A DNA stretch of 64,000 nt from Solirubrobacteraceae bacterium (GTDB lineage: Bacteria > Actinomycetota > Thermoleophilia > Solirubrobacterales > Solirubrobacteraceae). A model generated the notes under the pieces. That model was not told where the DNA came from and did not search any database. It worked only from the letters and a program-made list of their open reading frames with translations. Positions 3,911-62,968 of the stretch are shown here, piece by piece. Each line of letters begins with the position of its first letter. Position 1 is the first letter of the stretch. The translations under genes were made by a program, and so were the position numbers. The stretch spans positions 1 to 64,000 of the forward strand of contig JAGIBJ010000043.1 in assembly GCA_017744415.1 (NCBI GenBank), written 5' to 3'.

Positions 3911-4128
3911 GGCCGTCACTCGCGTGACCAAAACGCCACCGGAGGCACCCGCCGTCACTCGCGTGACCAAAACGCCACCGGAGGAACCCGCCGTCACTCG
4001 CGTGACCGTAGGGCCCCGGGTAGGACCTGCTGTCACTCGCGTGACCGTAGGGCCCCCGGCAGGACCCGCCGTCACTCGCGTGACCGTAGGGCCCCGGGCA
4101 GGACCCGCCGTCACTCGCGTGACGGCGG
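3911..4128 (+). repeat. Intergenic repeat cluster 4 (6 units)
   Basis: Six units share a cluster-specific core GTCACTCGCGTGACC. The first two are followed by AAAACGCCACCGGAGG and the next three by GTAGGGCCCC, so sub-types have multiplied locally. The cluster lies upstream of the AbiEi-like gene, and an open frame runs through it into that gene. Confidence 0.9.
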
Positions 4129-8123: not shown

Positions 8124-8266
8124 GGACCTCCCGTCACCCGCGTTACCGCACCGCCCTCCCAGGGACCTCCCGTCACGCGCGTTACCGCACCGCCCTCCCA
8201 GGGACCTCCCGTCACCCGCGTTACCGCACCGCCCTCCCAGGGACCTCCCGTCACCCGCGTGACCGC
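8124..8266 (+). repeat. Intergenic repeat cluster 6 (4 units)
   Basis: Four units with a 38-bp period. The repeated text is GGACCTCCCGTCACSCGCGTTACCGCACCGCC, with the last copy ending in GTGACC. They lie between the divergent response-regulator gene and a small membrane-protein gene. Confidence 0.9.
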
Positions 8267-8743: not shown

Positions 8744-8855
8744 TGCTCACGTCACGCGCGTGACCGCAGGGCCCCCAACAGGCACTTCCGTCACGCGCGT
8801 TACCGCAGGGCCCCCAACGGGCACTTCCGTCACGCGCGTGACCGCAGGGCCCCGT
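8744..8855 (+). repeat. Intergenic repeat cluster 7 (3 units)
   Basis: Three plus-orientation units (GTCACGCGCGTKACCGCAGGGCCCC) lie between the convergent small membrane-protein and cax genes. Confidence 0.9.
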
Positions 8856-16451: not shown

Positions 16452-16564
16452 GGGCACTTTCGTCACGCGCGTTACCGCAGGGCCCCCACAGGGCACTTTC
16501 GTCACGCGCGTTACCGCAGGGCCCCCACAGGGACCTGCCGTCACGTGCGTTACCGCAGGACCCC
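16452..16564 (+). repeat. Intergenic repeat cluster 9 (3 units)
   Basis: Three plus-orientation units (GTCACGCGCGTTACCGCAGGGCCCCCACAGGG, 39-bp period; the third core is GTCACGTGCGTTACC). The last unit ends about 8 bp before the -10 box of the MoxR gene, so the repeat core occupies that promoter's -35 region. Confidence 0.9.
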
Positions 16565-21965: not shown

Positions 21966-23372
21966 TCATCGCGTGCCGCGGATCACCTGCCCGGTGCGCA
22001 GCACCCCGTGCGGGTCGTGCTGATCGGCGAGGGCGCCGAGCCAGTGCCGCGTGTCGTCGTCGTAGCTGCGGGAGAGCCGCTCGGGGTCGTCGGTCGCCGT
22101 GAAGTTCGGCAACGTGAAGCCCGTCGACCACGGTTCGATCGCGGCCTCGAGCGCTGCGCCGTGTGCGGGCACCGCTTCGGCGATCTCGGGAGCGAGGACG
22201 CCGACCGCGAGGAAGGTGAACGCCGCGTCGCGATGAGAGAAGGCGCTGCGATGCACCGGGGCCTCTCGCACCTTGCCGCCCAGCAGCCGCAGCTCAACGA
22301 CCGTCTGCGGAGAGCGGCTGCCCGGGCCGGCGAGATCGACGAGCACCTCCGCGAGCTGGCCGGGGAACTCACGCAGCAGACCGCTCACCTCGCGGCTCGG
22401 CATAGGGTCGACGGGATCGGCGTGCACGGCGGCGACGGCCGCGTACGGCATGGGTGCGACCCCGTCGAGGATCGGCTCGGCGCAGGCGCGGAGCGGCGCG
22501 AGCAGCCGTTCGCCCACCTCGGGCGACTGCGTCGTCGTGAACCGCACCGCGATCGACATGCGCCCGGCGATCGGAGCGGGGATCTTCGGGAGCGGCGGCA
22601 GCTGCAGGATCGCCAGGGAGGTGTTGGCGTGCTCCGGGAGGTCGACCGTCAGCTCGCGCCACGCCTCGATCACCGCCGCCGCGTCCGCGCCGTCGAAGTA
22701 GAGCGCGCCGCCGTAGAAGCCGGCGAGGTCGAGGAGGTCGATCTCGATCTCCGTCACGATCCCGAGGCTGCCCTTCCCGCCACGCAGGCCCCAGAACAGC
22801 TCGGGATGCTCGGTCGGCGTGACGCGCAGGAGCTTGCCCTCACCGGTGACGACCTGAAACGCACGCACGTGATCGGAGGAGAGCCCGAAGGTGCGCACGA
22901 AGGGGCCGATGCCGGCGCCCGTGAGGAAGCCGGCCACGCCGACGTTCGGTGAGCTGCCGACGAGCGGTGCGAGACCGTGCGGGGTCGCGGCATCGAGCAC
23001 CTGCTGCCAGATCGCGCCGGCGCCGACGCGCGCGGTGCGGCCAGCGACGTCGATCTCGATGTCGTCCAGCTTGCCCGTGTGCACGAGCACCGTCGGGCCC
23101 GAGATGGTGACCGCACCGTGGCCGGTGCGGCGCACCGCGACCTGCAGGCCGTGGGCCGCGGCGTGCCGCACCGTCGCCACGATGTCGGCAGGCGTCGCTG
23201 CCTCGACGACGGCGAGCGGCTCCTGCCGCACGGCGACGTTCCACGGCGTGGCCAGCTCGTAGCCGGGCTCGCCGGGGGCGGCGACGACACCGGAGACATC
23301 GGCGCGCAGCGCGGCGAGGAGCTCCGGCGCAAGCGGCGCGCTCTCGAGGGGGTGGTCGATGGACTGGGTCAC
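21966..23372 (-). CDS. FAD-linked oxidoreductase (BBE-like)
   Basis: A 468-residue FAD-binding PCMH oxidoreductase. The first half is the FAD-binding domain with RTGHGA, where the His is the usual 8-alpha attachment site, and GVAGFLTGAGIG. The second Cys used for bicovalent flavin in plant berberine bridge enzymes is absent. The C-terminal BBE motif reads YDDDTRHWLGALADQHDPHGV. Bacterial members oxidise sugars, alcohols or antibiotic intermediates. The GTG at 23372 has GAAAGG 8 nt upstream, which decides the start. SARP-type boxes lie 70-96 bp upstream, so the SARP gene next door is the likely activator. Confidence 0.85.
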   Translation of the reverse strand: MTQSIDHPLESAPLAPELLAALRADVSGVVAAPGEPGYELATPWNVAVRQEPLAVVEAATPADIVATVRHAAAHGLQVAVRRTGHGAVTISGPTVLVHTGKLDDIEIDVAGRTARVGAGAIWQQVLDAATPHGLAPLVGSSPNVGVAGFLTGAGIGPFVRTFGLSSDHVRAFQVVTGEGKLLRVTPTEHPELFWGLRGGKGSLGIVTEIEIDLLDLAGFYGGALYFDGADAAAVIEAWRELTVDLPEHANTSLAILQLPPLPKIPAPIAGRMSIAVRFTTTQSPEVGERLLAPLRACAEPILDGVAPMPYAAVAAVHADPVDPMPSREVSGLLREFPGQLAEVLVDLAGPGSRSPQTVVELRLLGGKVREAPVHRSAFSHRDAAFTFLAVGVLAPEIAEAVPAHGAALEAAIEPWSTGFTLPNFTATDDPERLSRSYDDDTRHWLGALADQHDPHGVLRTGQVIRGTR

Positions 23373-23426
23373 GGCGTTGGCCTTTCGGTGTCTGGCAGCA
23401 GCCCACCTGGGCTGCTCACTGCCCGC

Positions 23427-23468
23427 ACTCTGTCCCTCGGCGCTTGCGGCTCCCTTGGGGCTCGCTTG
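23427..23468 (-). promoter_or_regulatory. SARP-type operator and -10 of the oxidoreductase gene
   Basis: Three direct repeats on the minus strand, CAAGCG (23463-23468), CAAGGG (23452-23457) and CAAGCG (23441-23446), lie exactly 11 bp apart. The last is followed by 8 bp and then CAGAGT (23427-23432), a plausible -10. SARP proteins are known to bind heptamer repeats spaced one helical turn apart, with the last 8 bp from the -10. The upstream copy also forms an inverted repeat with 23475-23483. Confidence 0.65.
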
Positions 23469-23483
23469 GAGCGCCTCCAAGCG
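23463..23483 (-). terminator. Hairpin just after the SARP gene
   Basis: CGCTTGGAG and CTCCAAGCG form a perfect 9-bp inverted repeat around CGC, starting a few bases past the SARP stop codon. It may act as that gene's terminator, or simply be two opposed SARP half-sites. It overlaps the operator array. Confidence 0.4.
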
Positions 23484-23486
23484 TCG

Positions 23487-26400
23487 TCAGCTGGCGGTGA
23501 GTGCGCGGGCTTCACGCGCGATGCCCGCCATCCCGAGATCGTCCGCCGCTGCGGCAATCGACTCGAGCTCTTCCGTGCGGTCGCCTCTGCCGGACGCGTC
23601 GATGTGCACGGCCGCGAGGCGGCACCGAAGGAGTGAGGGCCGGCCGCCGTGCTCGGTGGCGAGCGTGGTCGCGATCTCGAGCAGCCGTGCGGCTTCGTCC
23701 GTCTCGCCGAGGAGGTGCTGGGCGCGGGCCAGGGCCAGCGCCACCGGTCCGAACTGGCCCACGTCGCCGACGATCGCGACGGCCTCCTCGTACGGCGCCA
23801 GCAGCGCGACGAGCGCAGCCGCCTGCTCGGCGGCTCCGAGATCGGCGCTCACGTGCGTGAGCAGCGTGGCGTGGCCGAGCGTCGTCCAGACCATCTGGCG
23901 CGGCGTCGCGAGCCACGTGTCGATGCGTTCCAGCGCTCGCGAGCGCTCGCCACGGGCGGCGGCGACGGCTGCCTCCCACGCCACGGGCTCGACGTCTCCG
24001 GGGCGATCGAGCTCGGAGAGCGTGCCCCGTTCCCAGCGCATCGCCTGGTCCGGCACGTCGACCGCGGCCTCGGAGTGCAGCTCCGTCGACCGATGCACCT
24101 CACCCGCCTGCGCGAAGTGCGCGGCGGCGGCCTCCAGGTCGCCGCGCCACTGCGCCATCATGCCCTGCGCCCATCGCAGCTGCACGCGCACGGCTGCCAT
24201 ACGCTGCATGTCGGCACCGACGATGCCGCGACGCAGATGCTCCTCCGCGGCGCCGATGTCGCCGAGGTTCAGGCAGGCCATCACGGCGACGGCGTGCCCG
24301 ACGGTTCGATCGACGGCCGAGCGCTCGTGCGGCAGCGACCAGAGCCGGTCGATCAGCTCCAAGCTCTCGCGCCGGTAGCTGGCGATTCCGGAGAACGCGA
24401 GGATGCGGCCGAGTAGCACGTCGGCGAGCAGTTCGTCGTCACCGAGCGCCTCGGCGATCGCGATGGCCTCCGAGCTCTGGCGCTCTGCGATCGAGCGATC
24501 GAGTTCGTAGACGTTGCCCACGGCGATGGCGGCAAGCACCTTCGCCCGCGCCGCCGGATCGTGTTCGAGGGCTGGTTCGACGGCGCTGAGCCGCGCCTGG
24601 AGCGAGCCGGGATCCTGCACGGAGGCCACCCACGGCCAAGAGCCGGTCGCGCGGAGCAGACTCGCCGCGAGCTTGCCGACGGTGCTGGTGCGCTCCTCGC
24701 GAACGGCGTCGAAGATGCCGTCCTCGATCACCTCGATCACTCGCTGGCGCCGCCCGGCGAGTGCCAGCGCCTCGACGTGGGCGATGATCAGGTCGTCGCG
24801 CTCGCCTGGGCTGCGCTCGGCGGCAGGCAGCAGATCGTAGGCCCGGAGCGCCTCGCGCCACCAGGCTGCCGCCGTCTCCGAGCTCCAGCGTTCGACGTCG
24901 GCGCGGGCCGCCTCGCGACACGCAGCGAGCGTCTCAGCGGCATCGCTCACCGGGAGGGCCTGGAGCAGGTGACGGGCCCGCAGGCCCGGTTCGGCGCCGC
25001 GCTCCCTCAGCAGCTCTGCCACCCGCACGTGGAGTCGCTGCCGCCGCAGCGCAGGCATCTGTGCCAGCACCTCCTCGCGCAGCAAGCCGTGTCCGAAGGC
25101 GTAGCCGGCGGTATCCGCAGCCGGGACGAGGATGTGCGCATCTGCTGCGGCATCGAGCAGGTCGGCGGCCGCATCGGGATCCTGACGGGTGAGGACGGCG
25201 ACGAGATCGAGATCGACGGGGTCCCCGACCACCGCTGCGGCGCGCAACACGTCGATCACGGCGTCGTCGAGTTCCCCGAGCCGGCGTCCGAGCACCGAGC
25301 GCACCGCGAGCGGAAGGCCCGCGCCCCCGCGTTCGGCGGGGGCGAGACGCGCGTACTCACGGACGAACAACGGGTTGCCTCCGGTGCGCTGCGAGAGCTC
25401 CTGCGCCTCCGATGGGGCGAGTGGCTCGGCAGCGACGAGGTTGGCGAGCTCGCCGACCGCCCGCGGCTCCAGTGGGGCGACCGCCAGCTGACGGTGCCCG
25501 TCGGCGCGTGCGAGGGCGGCGAGGAGCGGCCGCAGGGCCGACTCGTCCTCGCCCTCGCGCAGGGTCAGCGCAAAGACCACGGGAGCGATCCGCACCGTCC
25601 CCGCGAGATAGGCGAGGCACCTCGCCGACGTGGGATCCGCCCACTGAACGTCGTCGATGATGATGACGCGGGGCGGGCCATCCACCGCCGCATCCGTGAT
25701 CAGCTGCGCAACGCGGTCGTACACCGCGAAGCGCGCCTCGTCCGCCTCGGCTCCGGGCGGCGGCACCAGCACGTCGTCGGGCACGCCGCCGAGGAGCCGG
25801 ATCAGCCGGCGCAGCGGCCACCACGCCGGCATGCCCTCGTCTTCGGGGCAGCGGGCCCACACGTCGCGCCAGCCGCGCTTGCGCGCGCGTTGCGCGAGCT
25901 CCTCGGCCAGGCGGGTCTTGCCGATCCCGGCCGGGCCGGTCATCACGAGCCAGCGGGCCGCATGCTCGCCCGCCTCGTCGAGCAGCTCCTCGAGGAGCGT
26001 GACTTCGCGGGCGCGCCCGACGAGGTCGTGGCTCTGGTCGAGCTCGAGATCCGGGACGACCGGCAGGGTTCGCTCCTCGGAAGCGCGCGGTGCGGGTGGT
26101 GCGGGCGCTATCGGTTCCGGTGGGGATGCGCCGGCGCCCGAGTCCGCGCTGCGCGGCCACGCGGCAAGTGCCGGGTCCTGGCGGAGGATCGACATCTGCA
26201 GTTCGCGGAGCTCACTGCCGGGCTCGAGCCCGAGCTCGTCGCTCAGCCGGGCAGCGTGCTCGCGGAAGCGCTCAAGCGCCTCGGGCGCCCGGCCCGCGCG
26301 GTACAGCGCCACCATCAGCAGCCAGCAGCCGCGATCTCGGAGGGGATCGTCGGCCACGAGTTGCTGGGCCTGGACGATCGCGTCGGCGATGCGGCTTTCG

Positions 26401-27005
26401 CTGAGGAGGGCGGTTGCGCGCGTCTCCCTCAGCTCGGTGATGATCTCGGCGACGGCGTCGGCTTCCGTGCGCACCCATGGCTCATCGGCCAGGTCCTGGA
26501 GGAGCGGGCCCTCGCCCAGGGCGGCTGCCTGCTCGGCGGCGTCGATCGCCTCGTCCCAGCGCTGCTGCCCGGCCGCTTCTCGCGCTCGTCCCGCCAGGCG
26601 AGCGAACTCGGTCAGGTCGAGCTGCTCGGCGGTCACGTCCAGGGCGTACCCGGAGGAACGCCACGCGATCGGCGCCGCTCCGCCGTCCTCGTCGCGCAGC
26701 GCACGCCGCAGGTTCGACACGTAGGCCTGCAGGCTCGCCGTCGCGCTGGCCGGAGGGTCGACCGGCCAGACGGCGTCGATCAGGCGATCAGTCGGTACGA
26801 CGCGACCCCGGCTCAAGAGGAGCACGGCGAGCACGGCCCGCTGCTTCGGCGGCCCGAGCTCGATCGTCTCGCCGTGGCGGGCCGCGGTGAGCGGCCCGAG
26901 CAAGCGATAGGTGATGGCGGGTGACGCCTCCGATGCTCCATCCCGCGCGATGGCGGGAGTGTAGATGAGCGACCTCCGCAGCAGATGGCGTGGGAGGTCG
27001 CCCAC
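23487..27005 (-). CDS. Large SARP/AfsR-type transcriptional regulator
   Basis: A 1172-residue regulator. Order: winged-helix DNA-binding domain (about 32-105, ITYRLLGPLTAARHG, LQAYVSNLRRAL), bacterial transcriptional activator domain (110-265), Pro/Ala-rich linker, AAA/STAND ATPase with Walker A GPAGIGKT near residue 350 and Walker B VIIIDDVQWADP, then a long TPR-like helical region to the end. There is no C-terminal LuxR helix-turn-helix. Such proteins activate local gene sets by binding direct repeats. Matching boxes occur before the oxidoreductase gene and before the beta-propeller gene whose operon includes this regulator. The GTG at 27005 is 32 bp after the upstream stop; the exact start is unsure. 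Confidence 0.88.
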   Translation of the reverse strand: MGDLPRHLLRRSLIYTPAIARDGASEASPAITYRLLGPLTAARHGETIELGPPKQRAVLAVLLLSRGRVVPTDRLIDAVWPVDPPASATASLQAYVSNLRRALRDEDGGAAPIAWRSSGYALDVTAEQLDLTEFARLAGRAREAAGQQRWDEAIDAAEQAAALGEGPLLQDLADEPWVRTEADAVAEIITELRETRATALLSESRIADAIVQAQQLVADDPLRDRGCWLLMVALYRAGRAPEALERFREHAARLSDELGLEPGSELRELQMSILRQDPALAAWPRSADSGAGASPPEPIAPAPPAPRASEERTLPVVPDLELDQSHDLVGRAREVTLLEELLDEAGEHAARWLVMTGPAGIGKTRLAEELAQRARKRGWRDVWARCPEDEGMPAWWPLRRLIRLLGGVPDDVLVPPPGAEADEARFAVYDRVAQLITDAAVDGPPRVIIIDDVQWADPTSARCLAYLAGTVRIAPVVFALTLREGEDESALRPLLAALARADGHRQLAVAPLEPRAVGELANLVAAEPLAPSEAQELSQRTGGNPLFVREYARLAPAERGGAGLPLAVRSVLGRRLGELDDAVIDVLRAAAVVGDPVDLDLVAVLTRQDPDAAADLLDAAADAHILVPAADTAGYAFGHGLLREEVLAQMPALRRQRLHVRVAELLRERGAEPGLRARHLLQALPVSDAAETLAACREAARADVERWSSETAAAWWREALRAYDLLPAAERSPGERDDLIIAHVEALALAGRRQRVIEVIEDGIFDAVREERTSTVGKLAASLLRATGSWPWVASVQDPGSLQARLSAVEPALEHDPAARAKVLAAIAVGNVYELDRSIAERQSSEAIAIAEALGDDELLADVLLGRILAFSGIASYRRESLELIDRLWSLPHERSAVDRTVGHAVAVMACLNLGDIGAAEEHLRRGIVGADMQRMAAVRVQLRWAQGMMAQWRGDLEAAAAHFAQAGEVHRSTELHSEAAVDVPDQAMRWERGTLSELDRPGDVEPVAWEAAVAAARGERSRALERIDTWLATPRQMVWTTLGHATLLTHVSADLGAAEQAAALVALLAPYEEAVAIVGDVGQFGPVALALARAQHLLGETDEAARLLEIATTLATEHGGRPSLLRCRLAAVHIDASGRGDRTEELESIAAAADDLGMAGIAREARALTAS

Positions 27006-27037
27006 CAGGGCGCGCTCGAGTGCGCGACGCCCGCGCC

Positions 27038-28402
27038 TCAGAGCTTGGCGGTGACGGCCGTCGTCGGCCCACCCTGCTGCTTGGCCTTGATCGTCACCGA
27101 CATGTGGTGACGCTGGCGCAGGCGCCGCATCCCCACAGCGTTCAGCCGGATCCGGGCCGATGCGGCGCCGCTCTTACCCGGCTTGACGGTCCGGCGGCCG
27201 ACCACCACGCGGCCGTCGAGCACGGTCAGCGTCACGCGGCCCGAGGCGCCGGTGACGCGCACCGCGATGCCCGCCGTGAGGGCACGCTTCACACGCCCCG
27301 ATGGGAGACTGATCGCGAGGCTGCGGTGCTCACCGGCACCTGTCGCGGGCCGGTTGGTGGAACCGCCCGTTCCGGATGCCGGGGCGGTGGGCGCGGTGGC
27401 GGCAGGCCGGCCGCCGAGCGGGACCGACGCCGGACGGCTCGTCGGCACGTCGGCCGGCCCCCAGTCGGGTGAGGTCGCGCCGCTCACGATGGTCTTGGCC
27501 TCCTGGCCGTCCGGGCAGGTGGTGCTCGTGTCGCCGATGGGCGCCGCCATCAGGTCGTGACCGTCCGAGAACGCAAGCACCGTCCCTCCGGCGTTGAACG
27601 TGGGTGACTCGTACGCCGGCGTGCCGTCGTTCGCGCCGGCGCTGTAGGTGAAGCACTTGGAGACGTTGCCCTTCACCTGCGCGTCCCAGTCGCGGTAGAC
27701 GGAGACGCCCTGCCGGCCGGGCCCGACGACCGCCGCGATCAGCCGCTTGTTGCGCGAGATCGTGCCGTCGAGGGGATGCATGTTGTCCGGGTCGGTGAAC
27801 CATCCCTGCGGATCGCCCGAGCCGAGGGTTTCGACGGCGAACGGGTCGCTCGGGTAGCCGGGCCCGTTGGTGACGAGCACCGTGGAGTCGTCGATCCACT
27901 CGGGGGCGTCCCACGACTTCGCGTACTTGTAGCCGGCGTCGGTGAAGCCGGTGAGGGCGTCGCTCTTCGTGAAGCCGTGCCCGTTGTGCTCCTCGTAGTC
28001 GATCGCGCCCGAGCTGTTGTTCTGCCAGCCCTGCGACCACCAGCCGTAGGCGATGGTGCGGCCGTTCGGCGAGAGGTCGGCGTCGAACGGCCCGCGGAAC
28101 GTGAACAGGCTGCTGCCCGCGGTCGAGACGGGTGTGCTGATCGAGGAGAGCACCGCGCCGAAGCGGTCCATGCGTACGAGGTCGCCGCCGCTCGTGCCGA
28201 GGATGGTGCCGTCGTCGGCCTGGCTCACGTGGCTGTATGCCGTACCGCTCGTGACCTGGAACTGCCGGGCGCCGTCAGTCGTCGTGAGCCAGATGTCGCC
28301 GCCGCGCAGGTAGGCGATCGAGTCGGCGTGGGCGGGCCCGGCGAGCGCTGCGGAGGCAGCGCCGGCGGCAAGGAGGGCGGTGAGGATGCGGTTCGTTTGC
28401 AT
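27038..28402 (-). CDS. Secreted TolB-like beta-propeller protein
   Basis: A 454-residue exported protein: signal peptide ending AGPAHA, then WD40-like/PD40 beta-propeller blades (SIAYLRGGDIWLTTTDG, DADLSPNGRTIAYGWW, PDWGPADVP). A Thr/Pro/Gly linker follows, then a C-terminal beta-sandwich (SGRVTLTVLDGRVVVGRRTVKPG). It is probably a cell-surface or extracellular scaffold. The ATG at 28402 sits 7 bp after a CAGGGT -10 that is preceded by SARP boxes. The SARP gene follows 32 bp downstream, so the two are likely cotranscribed. Confidence 0.75.
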   Translation of the reverse strand: MQTNRILTALLAAGAASAALAGPAHADSIAYLRGGDIWLTTTDGARQFQVTSGTAYSHVSQADDGTILGTSGGDLVRMDRFGAVLSSISTPVSTAGSSLFTFRGPFDADLSPNGRTIAYGWWSQGWQNNSSGAIDYEEHNGHGFTKSDALTGFTDAGYKYAKSWDAPEWIDDSTVLVTNGPGYPSDPFAVETLGSGDPQGWFTDPDNMHPLDGTISRNKRLIAAVVGPGRQGVSVYRDWDAQVKGNVSKCFTYSAGANDGTPAYESPTFNAGGTVLAFSDGHDLMAAPIGDTSTTCPDGQEAKTIVSGATSPDWGPADVPTSRPASVPLGGRPAATAPTAPASGTGGSTNRPATGAGEHRSLAISLPSGRVKRALTAGIAVRVTGASGRVTLTVLDGRVVVGRRTVKPGKSGAASARIRLNAVGMRRLRQRHHMSVTIKAKQQGGPTTAVTAKL

Positions 28403-28409
28403 GGACCGC

Positions 28410-28464
28410 ACCCTGCTCGCGGGCGCTTGGTGCCGGCCATGGCACGCGCTTGGAGACGCGCTTG
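28410..28464 (-). promoter_or_regulatory. SARP-type operator and leaderless promoter of the beta-propeller/SARP operon
   Basis: On the minus strand CAAGCG occurs at 28459-28464, 28447-28452 and 28424-28429 (spacings 12 and 23 bp). The last is followed by exactly 8 bp, then CAGGGT (28410-28415) and 7 bp to the ATG at 28402. The CAAGCG-N8-CAGNGT layout repeats that before the oxidoreductase gene. Confidence 0.6.
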
Positions 28465-28533
28465 GACGACGTCAGGAACCGGCGCTCGCCCGAGTCGCGA
28501 ACGGGTGCGCCCGGTGAACGGTCCGTGTCCCGC

Positions 28534-29805
28534 TCAGCAGCTCAGCGGCAGCACGCGCGTGAACGGCAGCGTCGTCGTGAAGGTGCAGCCGGCGTTGGTG
28601 CCGTTGCCCGAGCTGTCGGCATCTGCCGCGCCGCCGCTGATGGTGATCGTGCCGGTGCCCTTGCCGGAGAGGATGGGTCCGCGGCGTGAGAGTTCCACCT
28701 GCGTGGTCGTGCGCTTCGCGAGCTTGTAGCCGAGGCCCCAGGCGTTGCCGTGGTCGGTCATCGTGCCGTAGTCCCAGAACTTCGCCGCGCTGGTCTGCGT
28801 GACGGGCGGGGCTCCCCAGAGGCCGCGCTGGTAGGCGTCGGCGAGCTGCTTCTTCCAGCCGGCCCAGTTGTGGGAGGTGTCCGGGAAGTTCACGGTGTTC
28901 ACCTTGGCGGTGGTGTCCTTCAGCGCCTTCAGGAAGCTGCCGGCCTGGAGGTTGGTGCCAACCTCCAGCGTTGCCTCACCGCGGGCACGGATGTCGAGAC
29001 TCCAGAGCGTCGAGATCGGCGGGGTGCCGTAGCCGACGTAGAGGCGTGAGAGCGCGTACTCACGGGCGTTCTTGAGCGGGTTCATCGACGTGGCGTAGGC
29101 GCTGCCCGGCAGGCCCCACACTGCGGTGTAGCCGTCGTGGCCGGCCTGCGCGAGCGCGAGGATCGGCGTGAAGCTGAAGTCCTGGTTGTCGAGCAGGCCC
29201 GAGAACGAGAGGGCGTTGCCGAAGTAGGTCGGCATCGCGGCCGACGCCATCATCGAGCCGTAGCCGCCCATCGACAGGCCGCCGATCGCGTGGTTGGCGC
29301 GCCCGGGAGCGATGCGCAGGTTCTGCTCCATGAATGGGACCACCTCGTCGAGCAGGTAGTTGCCCCACTGGTTGCCGGGCGTCCGCGCCGGATCGGCCCA
29401 GTTCACGAACCACGCCTTCGCGCCCTCGGGCATCACGATGATGCCGGGGAAGTCCGCCGGGAGCACCTTCGTCACGTCGCCCTTCTTCGGGTCGAGCCAG
29501 GCGCTGCTGTCGTCCTCCCAGCCGTGGAGCAGGTAGAGCACCGGCCAGCGGCGGTCGGGCTGGTCGTCGTAGCCCTCGGGCAGGCGCACCCATGCCGTGA
29601 GGCTGTTGACGGTGCCGTTGAACTGCACCTTCTTGACGTCGATGTTGCCCTTCGTGCTCGGCACCGCGAACTGCACGCTGCGCGCGGGCGAGGCGGCCTG
29701 CGCGGTGCCGGCCGCGGCGAGGAGGGTGGCGCCCACGACGGCGGCGACGGTGAGCCGCGCGAGGCGCCGGGTCGCGGGGACAACGGACCGGAACAGGAGG
29801 GACAT
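28534..29805 (-). CDS. Secreted esterase (esterase D / antigen 85-like fold)
   Basis: A 423-residue exported alpha/beta hydrolase. The signal peptide ends near AGTAQA. The catalytic domain has PVLYLLHGWEDD, the oxyanion region, nucleophile motif GGLSMGGYG and a late His in DTSHNWAGW. The family includes S-formylglutathione hydrolase, feruloyl esterases and mycobacterial mycolyltransferases; which activity applies is unclear. The last 75 residues form a small beta domain with two Cys that likely pair. It is first in a run of four minus-strand genes, 131 bp before the beta-propeller gene. Confidence 0.8.
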   Translation of the reverse strand: MSLLFRSVVPATRRLARLTVAAVVGATLLAAAGTAQAASPARSVQFAVPSTKGNIDVKKVQFNGTVNSLTAWVRLPEGYDDQPDRRWPVLYLLHGWEDDSSAWLDPKKGDVTKVLPADFPGIIVMPEGAKAWFVNWADPARTPGNQWGNYLLDEVVPFMEQNLRIAPGRANHAIGGLSMGGYGSMMASAAMPTYFGNALSFSGLLDNQDFSFTPILALAQAGHDGYTAVWGLPGSAYATSMNPLKNAREYALSRLYVGYGTPPISTLWSLDIRARGEATLEVGTNLQAGSFLKALKDTTAKVNTVNFPDTSHNWAGWKKQLADAYQRGLWGAPPVTQTSAAKFWDYGTMTDHGNAWGLGYKLAKRTTTQVELSRRGPILSGKGTGTITISGGAADADSSGNGTNAGCTFTTTLPFTRVLPLSC

Positions 29806-31410: not shown

Positions 31411-31522
31411 GGGCTCTCCCGTCACGCGCGTTGCCGCGGGGCCCCAGGAGGGCACTGCCGTCACTCGCGTTACCGCGGGGCCCCAGGAGGGCCCTCCCGT
31501 CACTCGCGTTACCGCGGGGCCT
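31411..31522 (+). repeat. Intergenic repeat cluster 10 (3 units)
   Basis: Three plus-orientation units with a cluster-specific CCGCGGGGCC in place of CCGCAGGGCC, and cores GTCACGCGCGTTGCC and GTCACTCGCGTTACC. They end about 10 bp before the GNAT-like stop codon. Confidence 0.9.
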
Positions 31523-32784: not shown

Positions 32785-32934
32785 GGGCCACCGCCGTCAC
32801 GCGCGTTACCGCAGGGCCCCCACAGGGCACCGTCGTCACGCGCGTTACCGCAGGGCCTTCACAGGGCACTCCCGTCACGCGCGTTACCGCAACGCCCTTA
32901 TTGGGCCCTTGCGTCACCCGCGTGACGGGAGGGC
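32785..32934 (+). repeat. Intergenic repeat cluster 11 (4 units)
   Basis: Four plus-orientation units fill the space between the divergent GNAT-like and SPT-like genes. The fourth (GTCACCCGCGTGACGGG) is the most diverged. The cluster lies between the two -10 boxes, so it occupies the shared upstream control region. Confidence 0.9.
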
Positions 32935-34260: not shown

Positions 34261-34440
34261 CGACACGCGAGTGACCGCGGCGCCAGCTGCGAGCACTCCC
34301 GTCCCCCGCGTTACCGCGGCATCCTCACAGGGCACTCCCGTCACGCGCGTTACCGCAGGGCCCCCACCGGGCACTCCCGTCACCCGCGTTACCGCAGGTC
34401 CCCCGCCGGGCACTCCCGTCACGCGCGTTACCGGAAGGCC
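34261..34440 (+). repeat. Intergenic repeat cluster 12 (5 units)
   Basis: Five plus-orientation units directly after the SPT-like stop. The first two are decayed (GCGAGTGACCGCGG and GTCCCCCGCGTTACCGC); the last three are close to consensus. Confidence 0.88.
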
Positions 34441-62861: not shown

Positions 62862-62892
62862 CCCACGCGTCACGCTCGCTAGCGCGCCCCAC

Positions 62893-62968
62893 AGGGTCCT
62901 AGCGTCACGCGCGTCACCGCAGGGCCCGCAGAGGGACCTCGCGTCACGCGCGTTACCGCAGCGCCCCT
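62893..62968 (+). repeat. Intergenic repeat cluster 14 (2 units)
   Basis: Two plus-orientation units (GTCACGCGCGTCACC and GTCACGCGCGTTACC) after the membrane-protein gene. Confidence 0.88.

Follow-up and report, generated by a model that had tools for sequence, protein, structure and literature searches.

Published rules for SARP regulators describe direct repeats 11 or 22 bp apart, a distance of 8 bp from the 3' repeat to the -10 element, adaptation of sigma region 4, and relief by ATP of the inhibition exerted by the NOD/TPR part (PMC10936776). In AfsR, T88 and R92 of the recognition helix read bases (PMC10936776), and the operators of the SARP-LAL regulators PimR, SanG, and PolR consist of CGGCAAG heptamers separated by 4-bp spacers (PMC5930380). 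McrA, a mitomycin radical oxidase, is reported to be a self-resistance flavoprotein whose synthesis is inducible (PMC6804068 and its ref. 374). Here, we analyze a 64,000-nucleotide stretch of DNA from Solirubrobacteraceae bacterium (contig JAGIBJ010000043.1; hereafter, the window), in which genes for a secreted beta-propeller protein, a large SARP, and a flavin adenine dinucleotide (FAD)-dependent oxidase follow one another on the minus strand (Table 1).

The SARP and the CCAAG boxes before the oxidase gene very probably form a real, mostly local switch, of a kind already known in general and recognizing a new sequence. From the sequence comparisons below, we consider it highly likely that this large SARP of the STAND type uses CCAAG direct repeats to activate the flavin oxidase gene next to it and, in the window, the propeller gene as well.

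The oxidase promoter in the window and in orthologous loci

The original prediction had placed CAAGCG, CAAGGG, and CAAGCG before the oxidase gene at an exact 11-bp period, with the last box 8 bp from CAGAGT. Both features are present: on the minus strand, the three CAAGSG boxes start at 23468, 23457, and 23446, and the 8-bp gap between box 3 and CAGAGT spans 23433-23440. The 11/11 spacing and the 8-bp gap, the latter found at both window promoters, agree with the published SARP rules as had been claimed (PMC10936776). No recognizable -35 was found. Translation very probably starts at GTG 23375, as suggested by an upstream AAAGG and by agreement with the starts of the orthologue alignment. This start leaves the boxes upstream of the coding region rather than within a longer open reading frame beginning with TTG, and gives the oxidase mRNA a short leader.

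Genome scans were performed with patterns and with a sequence-only profile. The combined box and -10 pattern of the original prediction, allowed a spacer of 6 to 10 (CAAGSG-N5-CAAGSG-N(6-10)-CAGNGT), has a single match in the 4.1-Mb source genome, namely the oxidase promoter, and its reversed control has none. Chance was estimated by 200 first-order Markov simulations of the 64-kb window, in which the triple never occurred. The same simulations gave expectations of 0.035 per 64 kb for 11-bp box pairs and 0.085 per 64 kb for box-N8-CAGNGT; each was seen twice.

Orthologues were gathered by the SARP protein (BTAD plus AAA/STAND) and are present in Patulibacter-like genomes, Mycolicibacterium, Jongsikchunia, and others. 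The same FAD oxidase lies 3' of every orthologous SARP with available flank, except one. In a first set, the oxidase directly follows the SARP in 15 loci by tblastn, and in G015 (L011) its start was read from the sequence. All 16 of these SARP-oxidase intergenic regions contain CCAAG-N6-CCAAG-N10-[CG]ANNNT, while the CCAAG-N6-CCAAG pair occurs nowhere else, on either strand, in 439 kb of first-set loci. For a second set, 201 genomes of the family to which L042 belongs were queried with only the SARP protein, which gave 29 usable loci, two of them also in the first set. Here, a slightly looser pattern, CAAG-N6-SCAAG-N10-NANNNT, was found in 29/29 oxidase intergenic regions, and 360 kb of flank contained none. 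When all gaps from 0 to 29 were counted, a gap of 6 accounted for 30 of 32 box pairs, and [CG]ANNNT stood at a distance of exactly 10 in 28 of 29 orthologues. The period is 11 bp in all orthologous oxidase promoters. A thirtieth locus (L226) lacks boxes and has no oxidase within reach.

Gene pairing, operator conservation, spacing, and site rarity are the results on which this analysis rests. The boxes appear to form a conserved operator, with comparative evidence as strong as can be obtained without an assay, and the proposal that the oxidase is a SARP target is well supported by it.

The regulator, the enzyme, and a proposed mechanism

By its domain matches, the regulator belongs to the large SARP family, as originally assigned, with a TPR region unconfirmed by Pfam. 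Its N-terminus matches Trans_reg_C (42 bits) and BTAD (109 bits), both above cut-off, and its central NTPase is of the NB-ARC/STAND type (AAA_16, E-value 7e-21; Walker A GPAGIGKT; IIIDDVQWAD). The C-terminus of the window protein has no Pfam TPR match; a homologue from a second SARP clade has a weak TPR_12 match. Searches with phmmer returned the AfsR cryo-EM chains 8hvr, 8k60, and 8jke, and EmbR (2fez).

Comparison of 61 SARP domains showed that box-bearing loci carry the recognition helix LQ(A/V)x(I/V)S(N/H)LRR or a close variant. No SARP with an SRLR helix had boxes in this sample, in which some of the loci lacking boxes have short flanks. The tree divides the loci with boxes between two clades, each having an LQxxxS(N/H)LRR-type helix, so the CCAAG code is either of ancient origin or was acquired on two occasions. 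More distant SARPs, including those of Nocardia, showed no CCAAG pair when searched with wide flanks. In an alignment read by eye, T88 and R92 of AfsR would correspond to A/V and N/H in the window SARP, and the base read would depend on the register.

The closest solved relative of the oxidase is mitomycin radical oxidase (PDB 9r43, E-value 4e-80), followed by EncM and 6-hydroxy-D-nicotine oxidase. The match to mitomycin radical oxidase covers the full fold (273 bits over residues 32-461) and includes the TGHG and GSSPNVG motifs. This relationship suggests that the SARP and the oxidase may constitute a xenobiotic-responsive detoxification module.

Because the geometry is identical to that of published SARPs, the same mechanism is the best explanation for this locus. 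The SARP would bind CCAAG-type direct repeats 11 bp apart as a side-by-side dimer ending 8 bp before the -10, and would hold sigma region 4 at a promoter that lacks a -35. Its AAA and C-terminal part may hold it in an inactive state, to be relieved in an ATP-dependent manner when a signal arrives, probably a small molecule that is toxic or redox-active. That inducing compound would then be destroyed by the oxidase and, in some lineages, exported by a co-regulated major facilitator superfamily (MFS) pump. Binding, activation, signal, and substrate are the parts that we infer; the homologies of enzyme and pump suggest a toxic, redox-active compound as the signal.

Further upstream, CTTG(G/A)-N6-CTTG(G/A) was found in 20 of 29 second-set loci and in many first-set loci, with inner distances clustering around 13-14 or 24 bases, two values that differ by roughly a helical turn. 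In the window, one inverted CTTGG precedes the oxidase box triplet. No comparable inverted-pair arrangement is described in the SARP literature examined, and we propose that it accommodates a second, head-to-head SARP pair. An arrangement of this kind looks less like a simple activator site than like a multi-dimer complex, which would suit a SARP that acts as a repressor: the boxes, located between -35 and -10, and the upstream inverted pair could block the promoter until a ligand frees the protein. However, the absence of a recognizable -35, the suboptimal -10, and the 8-bp geometry are hallmarks of SARP activation (PMC10936776), and make repression quite improbable compared with activation through the direct repeats.

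The propeller gene, autoregulation, and further CCAAG sites

Before the propeller gene, CAAGCG does lie 8 bp from CAGGGT with two further copies upstream, as first described, but the boxes do not keep an 11-bp period. Their starts (28464, 28452, and 28429) are spaced by 12 and 23 bp instead of 11 or 22, a 12/23/8 layout shared by a relative (G002:C7). The ATG at 28402 follows CAGGGT by seven bases, so that a leaderless message is predicted. The window propeller protein has no Pfam match, while a PD40 repeat is above cut-off in its relative L153; the AlphaFold model, of low confidence (pLDDT 54), matches WD40 and TolB folds, weak support for the fold. Second CCAAG sites precede the propeller gene in three Patulibacter-like loci, which supports the earlier suggestion that this gene is a second target. 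The profile found propeller-promoter sites in G022 and G002:C56; the latter, a second copy of the propeller-SARP pair, has four boxes at an 11-bp period, two of them CCGAG.

The original prediction went on to a full autoregulatory circuit, in which propeller and SARP form a single operon transcribed from the propeller promoter and the SARP activates its own synthesis together with the oxidase. The oxidase target stands, and read-through into the SARP gene is plausible: the two genes are co-oriented and separated by 32 bp when GTG 27005 is taken as the SARP start, and no terminator-like site was found in 23300-28600, so co-transcription is possible. The shared orientation recurs in four loci, with propeller and SARP adjoining in the window, G002:C7, and G002:C56 and arranged as propeller-cupin-SARP in G022. 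Against the circuit, TACACT, conserved before the SARP domain, suggests a separate promoter; in mycobacteria, the orthologues are leaderless and begin immediately behind a TAAGCT element without boxes; and the propeller gene is absent from the mycobacterial loci and the G015 locus, most orthologues being without one. The SARP gene appears to be served by a separate promoter without boxes, and we regard the full circuit as possible but somewhat doubtful.

Between TACACT and the SARP domain (26890-27005; G002:C7, L152), no in-frame ATG, GTG, or TTG occurs in either genome. SARP translation would start either upstream (GTG 27005 in the window) or at a leaderless, non-canonical ATC. In G022, a cupin-like frame read by eye (L153:8239-8964) lies between propeller and SARP and gives a propeller-cupin-SARP-oxidase row.

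The profile, trained on 16 non-window sites, ranked the oxidase promoter first in orthologue-bearing genomes with an assembled SARP-oxidase junction, the window genome excepted, and gave few other sites. Since most ranked sites were already in the model, this ranking mainly shows the scarcity of other sites. The profile scan of the window genome gave no convincing third target, which fits the self-contained circuit and, with the few sites elsewhere, favors the small local regulon that had been proposed. A strict search of the source genome (CCAAG-N6/7-CCAAG-N10-SANNNT) returned a single unrelated site; it misses the window oxidase promoter because box 3 is GCAAG. CCAAG sites also precede genes for MFS exporters in three genomes (Jongsikchunia, G278, and G402). 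Their products share 55-63% identity with one another, and in G402 the gene is not linked to that of the SARP. The regulon is predicted to be very small, comprising the oxidase and, depending on the lineage, the secreted propeller protein or an MFS exporter.

Several candidate sites were set aside. Other own-genome profile matches (C67, C84) lie within coding frames and look like chance. Class-wide matches in other Thermoleophilia (E-values 0.001-0.03) are near chance expectation in number; of four inspected individually, three are not close to a gene start and the fourth (L159) precedes an aminopeptidase-like gene. Sites G002:C196 and G015:C2 stand before short doubtful frames only and were not used.

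A site-first search of Mycobacteriaceae found CCAAG promoters beside a second clade of large SARPs, whose neighbors encode DUF4386-like membrane proteins and, in the case of L205 and L206, proteins of the hemerythrin type. Next to these SARPs (L206:5338-10058, L205, L202, L207, L208), the neighbors' promoters read CCAAG-N6-CCAAG-N10, and several are predicted to be leaderless. A wider picture is conceivable, and we offer it tentatively: actinobacterial STAND-SARPs outside antibiotic clusters may form a family that shares the CCAAG code, each member controlling one or a few neighboring genes of a detoxification type (for a flavin oxidase, an MFS pump, or a DUF4386-like or hemerythrin-like protein). 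Many of these promoters would carry, further upstream, a second pair of repeats in inverted orientation with 11-bp spacing, at a distance that shifts by roughly a helical turn, and there a head-to-head SARP complex of four protomers, undescribed so far, may form.

Several points weigh against SARP activation through CCAAG repeats. The 12/23-bp spacing of the propeller boxes departs from the exact 11/22-bp rule, and the profile scores the window sites weakly (propeller, E 1.07; oxidase, E 7.5), box 3 being GCAAG. Signal and substrate are guesses from homology. Strong sites in L203, L209, and L210 have no SARP within about 6-7 kb; such distant promoters would also be expected if a different regulator bound the boxes and the neighboring SARP were coincidental. 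Yet the boxes accompany this SARP in both Thermoleophilia and Mycobacteriales, occur next to another SARP clade as well, and follow SARP geometry, which makes a different regulator very improbable and the SARP the preferred candidate.

L210:6698-8234 is an oxidase paralogue with CCAAG-type boxes, 34% identical to the window oxidase; no SARP lies within about 6 kb, and its genome has a distant SARP match only. Elsewhere in the window, a 39-bp unit with the core GTCACGCGCGTTACCGCAGGGCCCC forms short tandem arrays of about 2-5 copies in at least ten places (1-99, 1401-1549, 3912-4123, 8124-8266, 8750-8853, 16452-16564, 31411-31521, 32789-32934, 34293-34440, and 62884-62967).

Table 1. Features of the propeller-SARP-oxidase region in window coordinates.
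Feature	Position	Strand	Basis or remark
FAD-dependent oxidase gene, PCMH/VAO type	21966..23375	-	start GTG 23375; Pfam FAD_binding_4; PDB 9r43, E 4e-80
Predicted -10 CAGAGT, oxidase promoter	23427..23432	-	sequence; position equivalent to [CG]ANNNT in orthologues
SARP box 3, GCAAGCG	CAAGCG 23441..23446	-	oxidase promoter, sequence; 8 bp from -10
SARP box 2, CCAAGGG	CAAGGG 23452..23457	-	oxidase promoter, sequence
SARP box 1, CCAAGCG	CAAGCG 23463..23468	-	oxidase promoter, sequence
Inverted CCAAG half site (CTTGG on - strand)	23477..23481	+	upstream of oxidase box 1; counterpart of mycobacterial inverted pair
Large SARP gene: Trans_reg_C DNA-binding, BTAD, AAA_16 (STAND-type), C-terminal region	23487..27005	-	Pfam; phmmer
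TACACT, possible -10 of a separate SARP promoter	26958..26963	-	conserved in G002:C7; inference
Secreted TolB/WD40-like beta-propeller gene	27038..28402	-	ATG 28402; PD40 match in a relative, low-confidence fold
Predicted -10 CAGGGT, propeller promoter	28410..28415	-	sequence; conserved as CAGTGT in G002:C7
SARP box CAAGCG, proximal	28424..28429	-	propeller promoter; 8 bp from CAGGGT
SARP box CAAGCG, middle	28447..28452	-	propeller promoter; 23 bp upstream of proximal box
SARP box CAAGCG, most distal	28459..28464	-	propeller promoter; 12 bp beyond middle box

Comparison with known systems

Large SARPs are abundant in actinobacteria, and the literature examined describes no targets or operators for these large SARPs outside Streptomyces antibiotic clusters. 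No paper joining CCAAG, SARP, and direct repeat was found, with subscription literature lying outside the search. With the conserved operator, at least two clades of large SARPs, in Mycobacteriales and Thermoleophilia, have a DNA code that can be put to the test, and regulons of one to three genes tied to detoxification-type enzymes and pumps are predicted.

Among described enzymes, McrA belongs to the same family as the window oxidase and shares its TGHG and GSSPNVG motifs; for the window enzyme, function and substrate are predictions from homology. EmbR, a medium SARP of Mycobacterium tuberculosis, has the same DNA-binding and BTAD fold and a similar helix, YVSNLRK. It differs in its targets and in carrying FHA in place of STAND/TPR (PMC10936776).

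AfsR, the large SARP acting at the afsS promoter of Streptomyces coelicolor, has the same domain order (DNA-binding, BTAD, NTPase, C-terminal region), matches the window regulator over the SARP domain with an E-value of 5e-35, and likewise uses 11-bp direct repeats 8 bp from the -10. Its box, however, is CGTTYATCG in contrast to CCAAGYG here, and its target is afsS where the window has a flavin oxidase gene. By the alignment above, the base-reading T88 and R92 face A/V and N/H in the window SARP, so the recognition rule is directly testable by mutation.

PimR, SanG, and PolR regulate from within Streptomyces antibiotic clusters, unlike the SARP described here, and the PimR operator has no -35 overlap and no reported inverted pair (PMC5930380). 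The CGGCAAG heptamer itself is not reproduced in the window, where the consensus is CCAAG and GCAAG occurs only in box 3 of the oxidase promoter. The operators nevertheless share heptamers, an 11-bp period, and a CAAG core, with three boxes both at the main PimR operator and at the window oxidase promoter (PMC5930380). The box sequence is new, and closest to the CGGCAAG of PimR.

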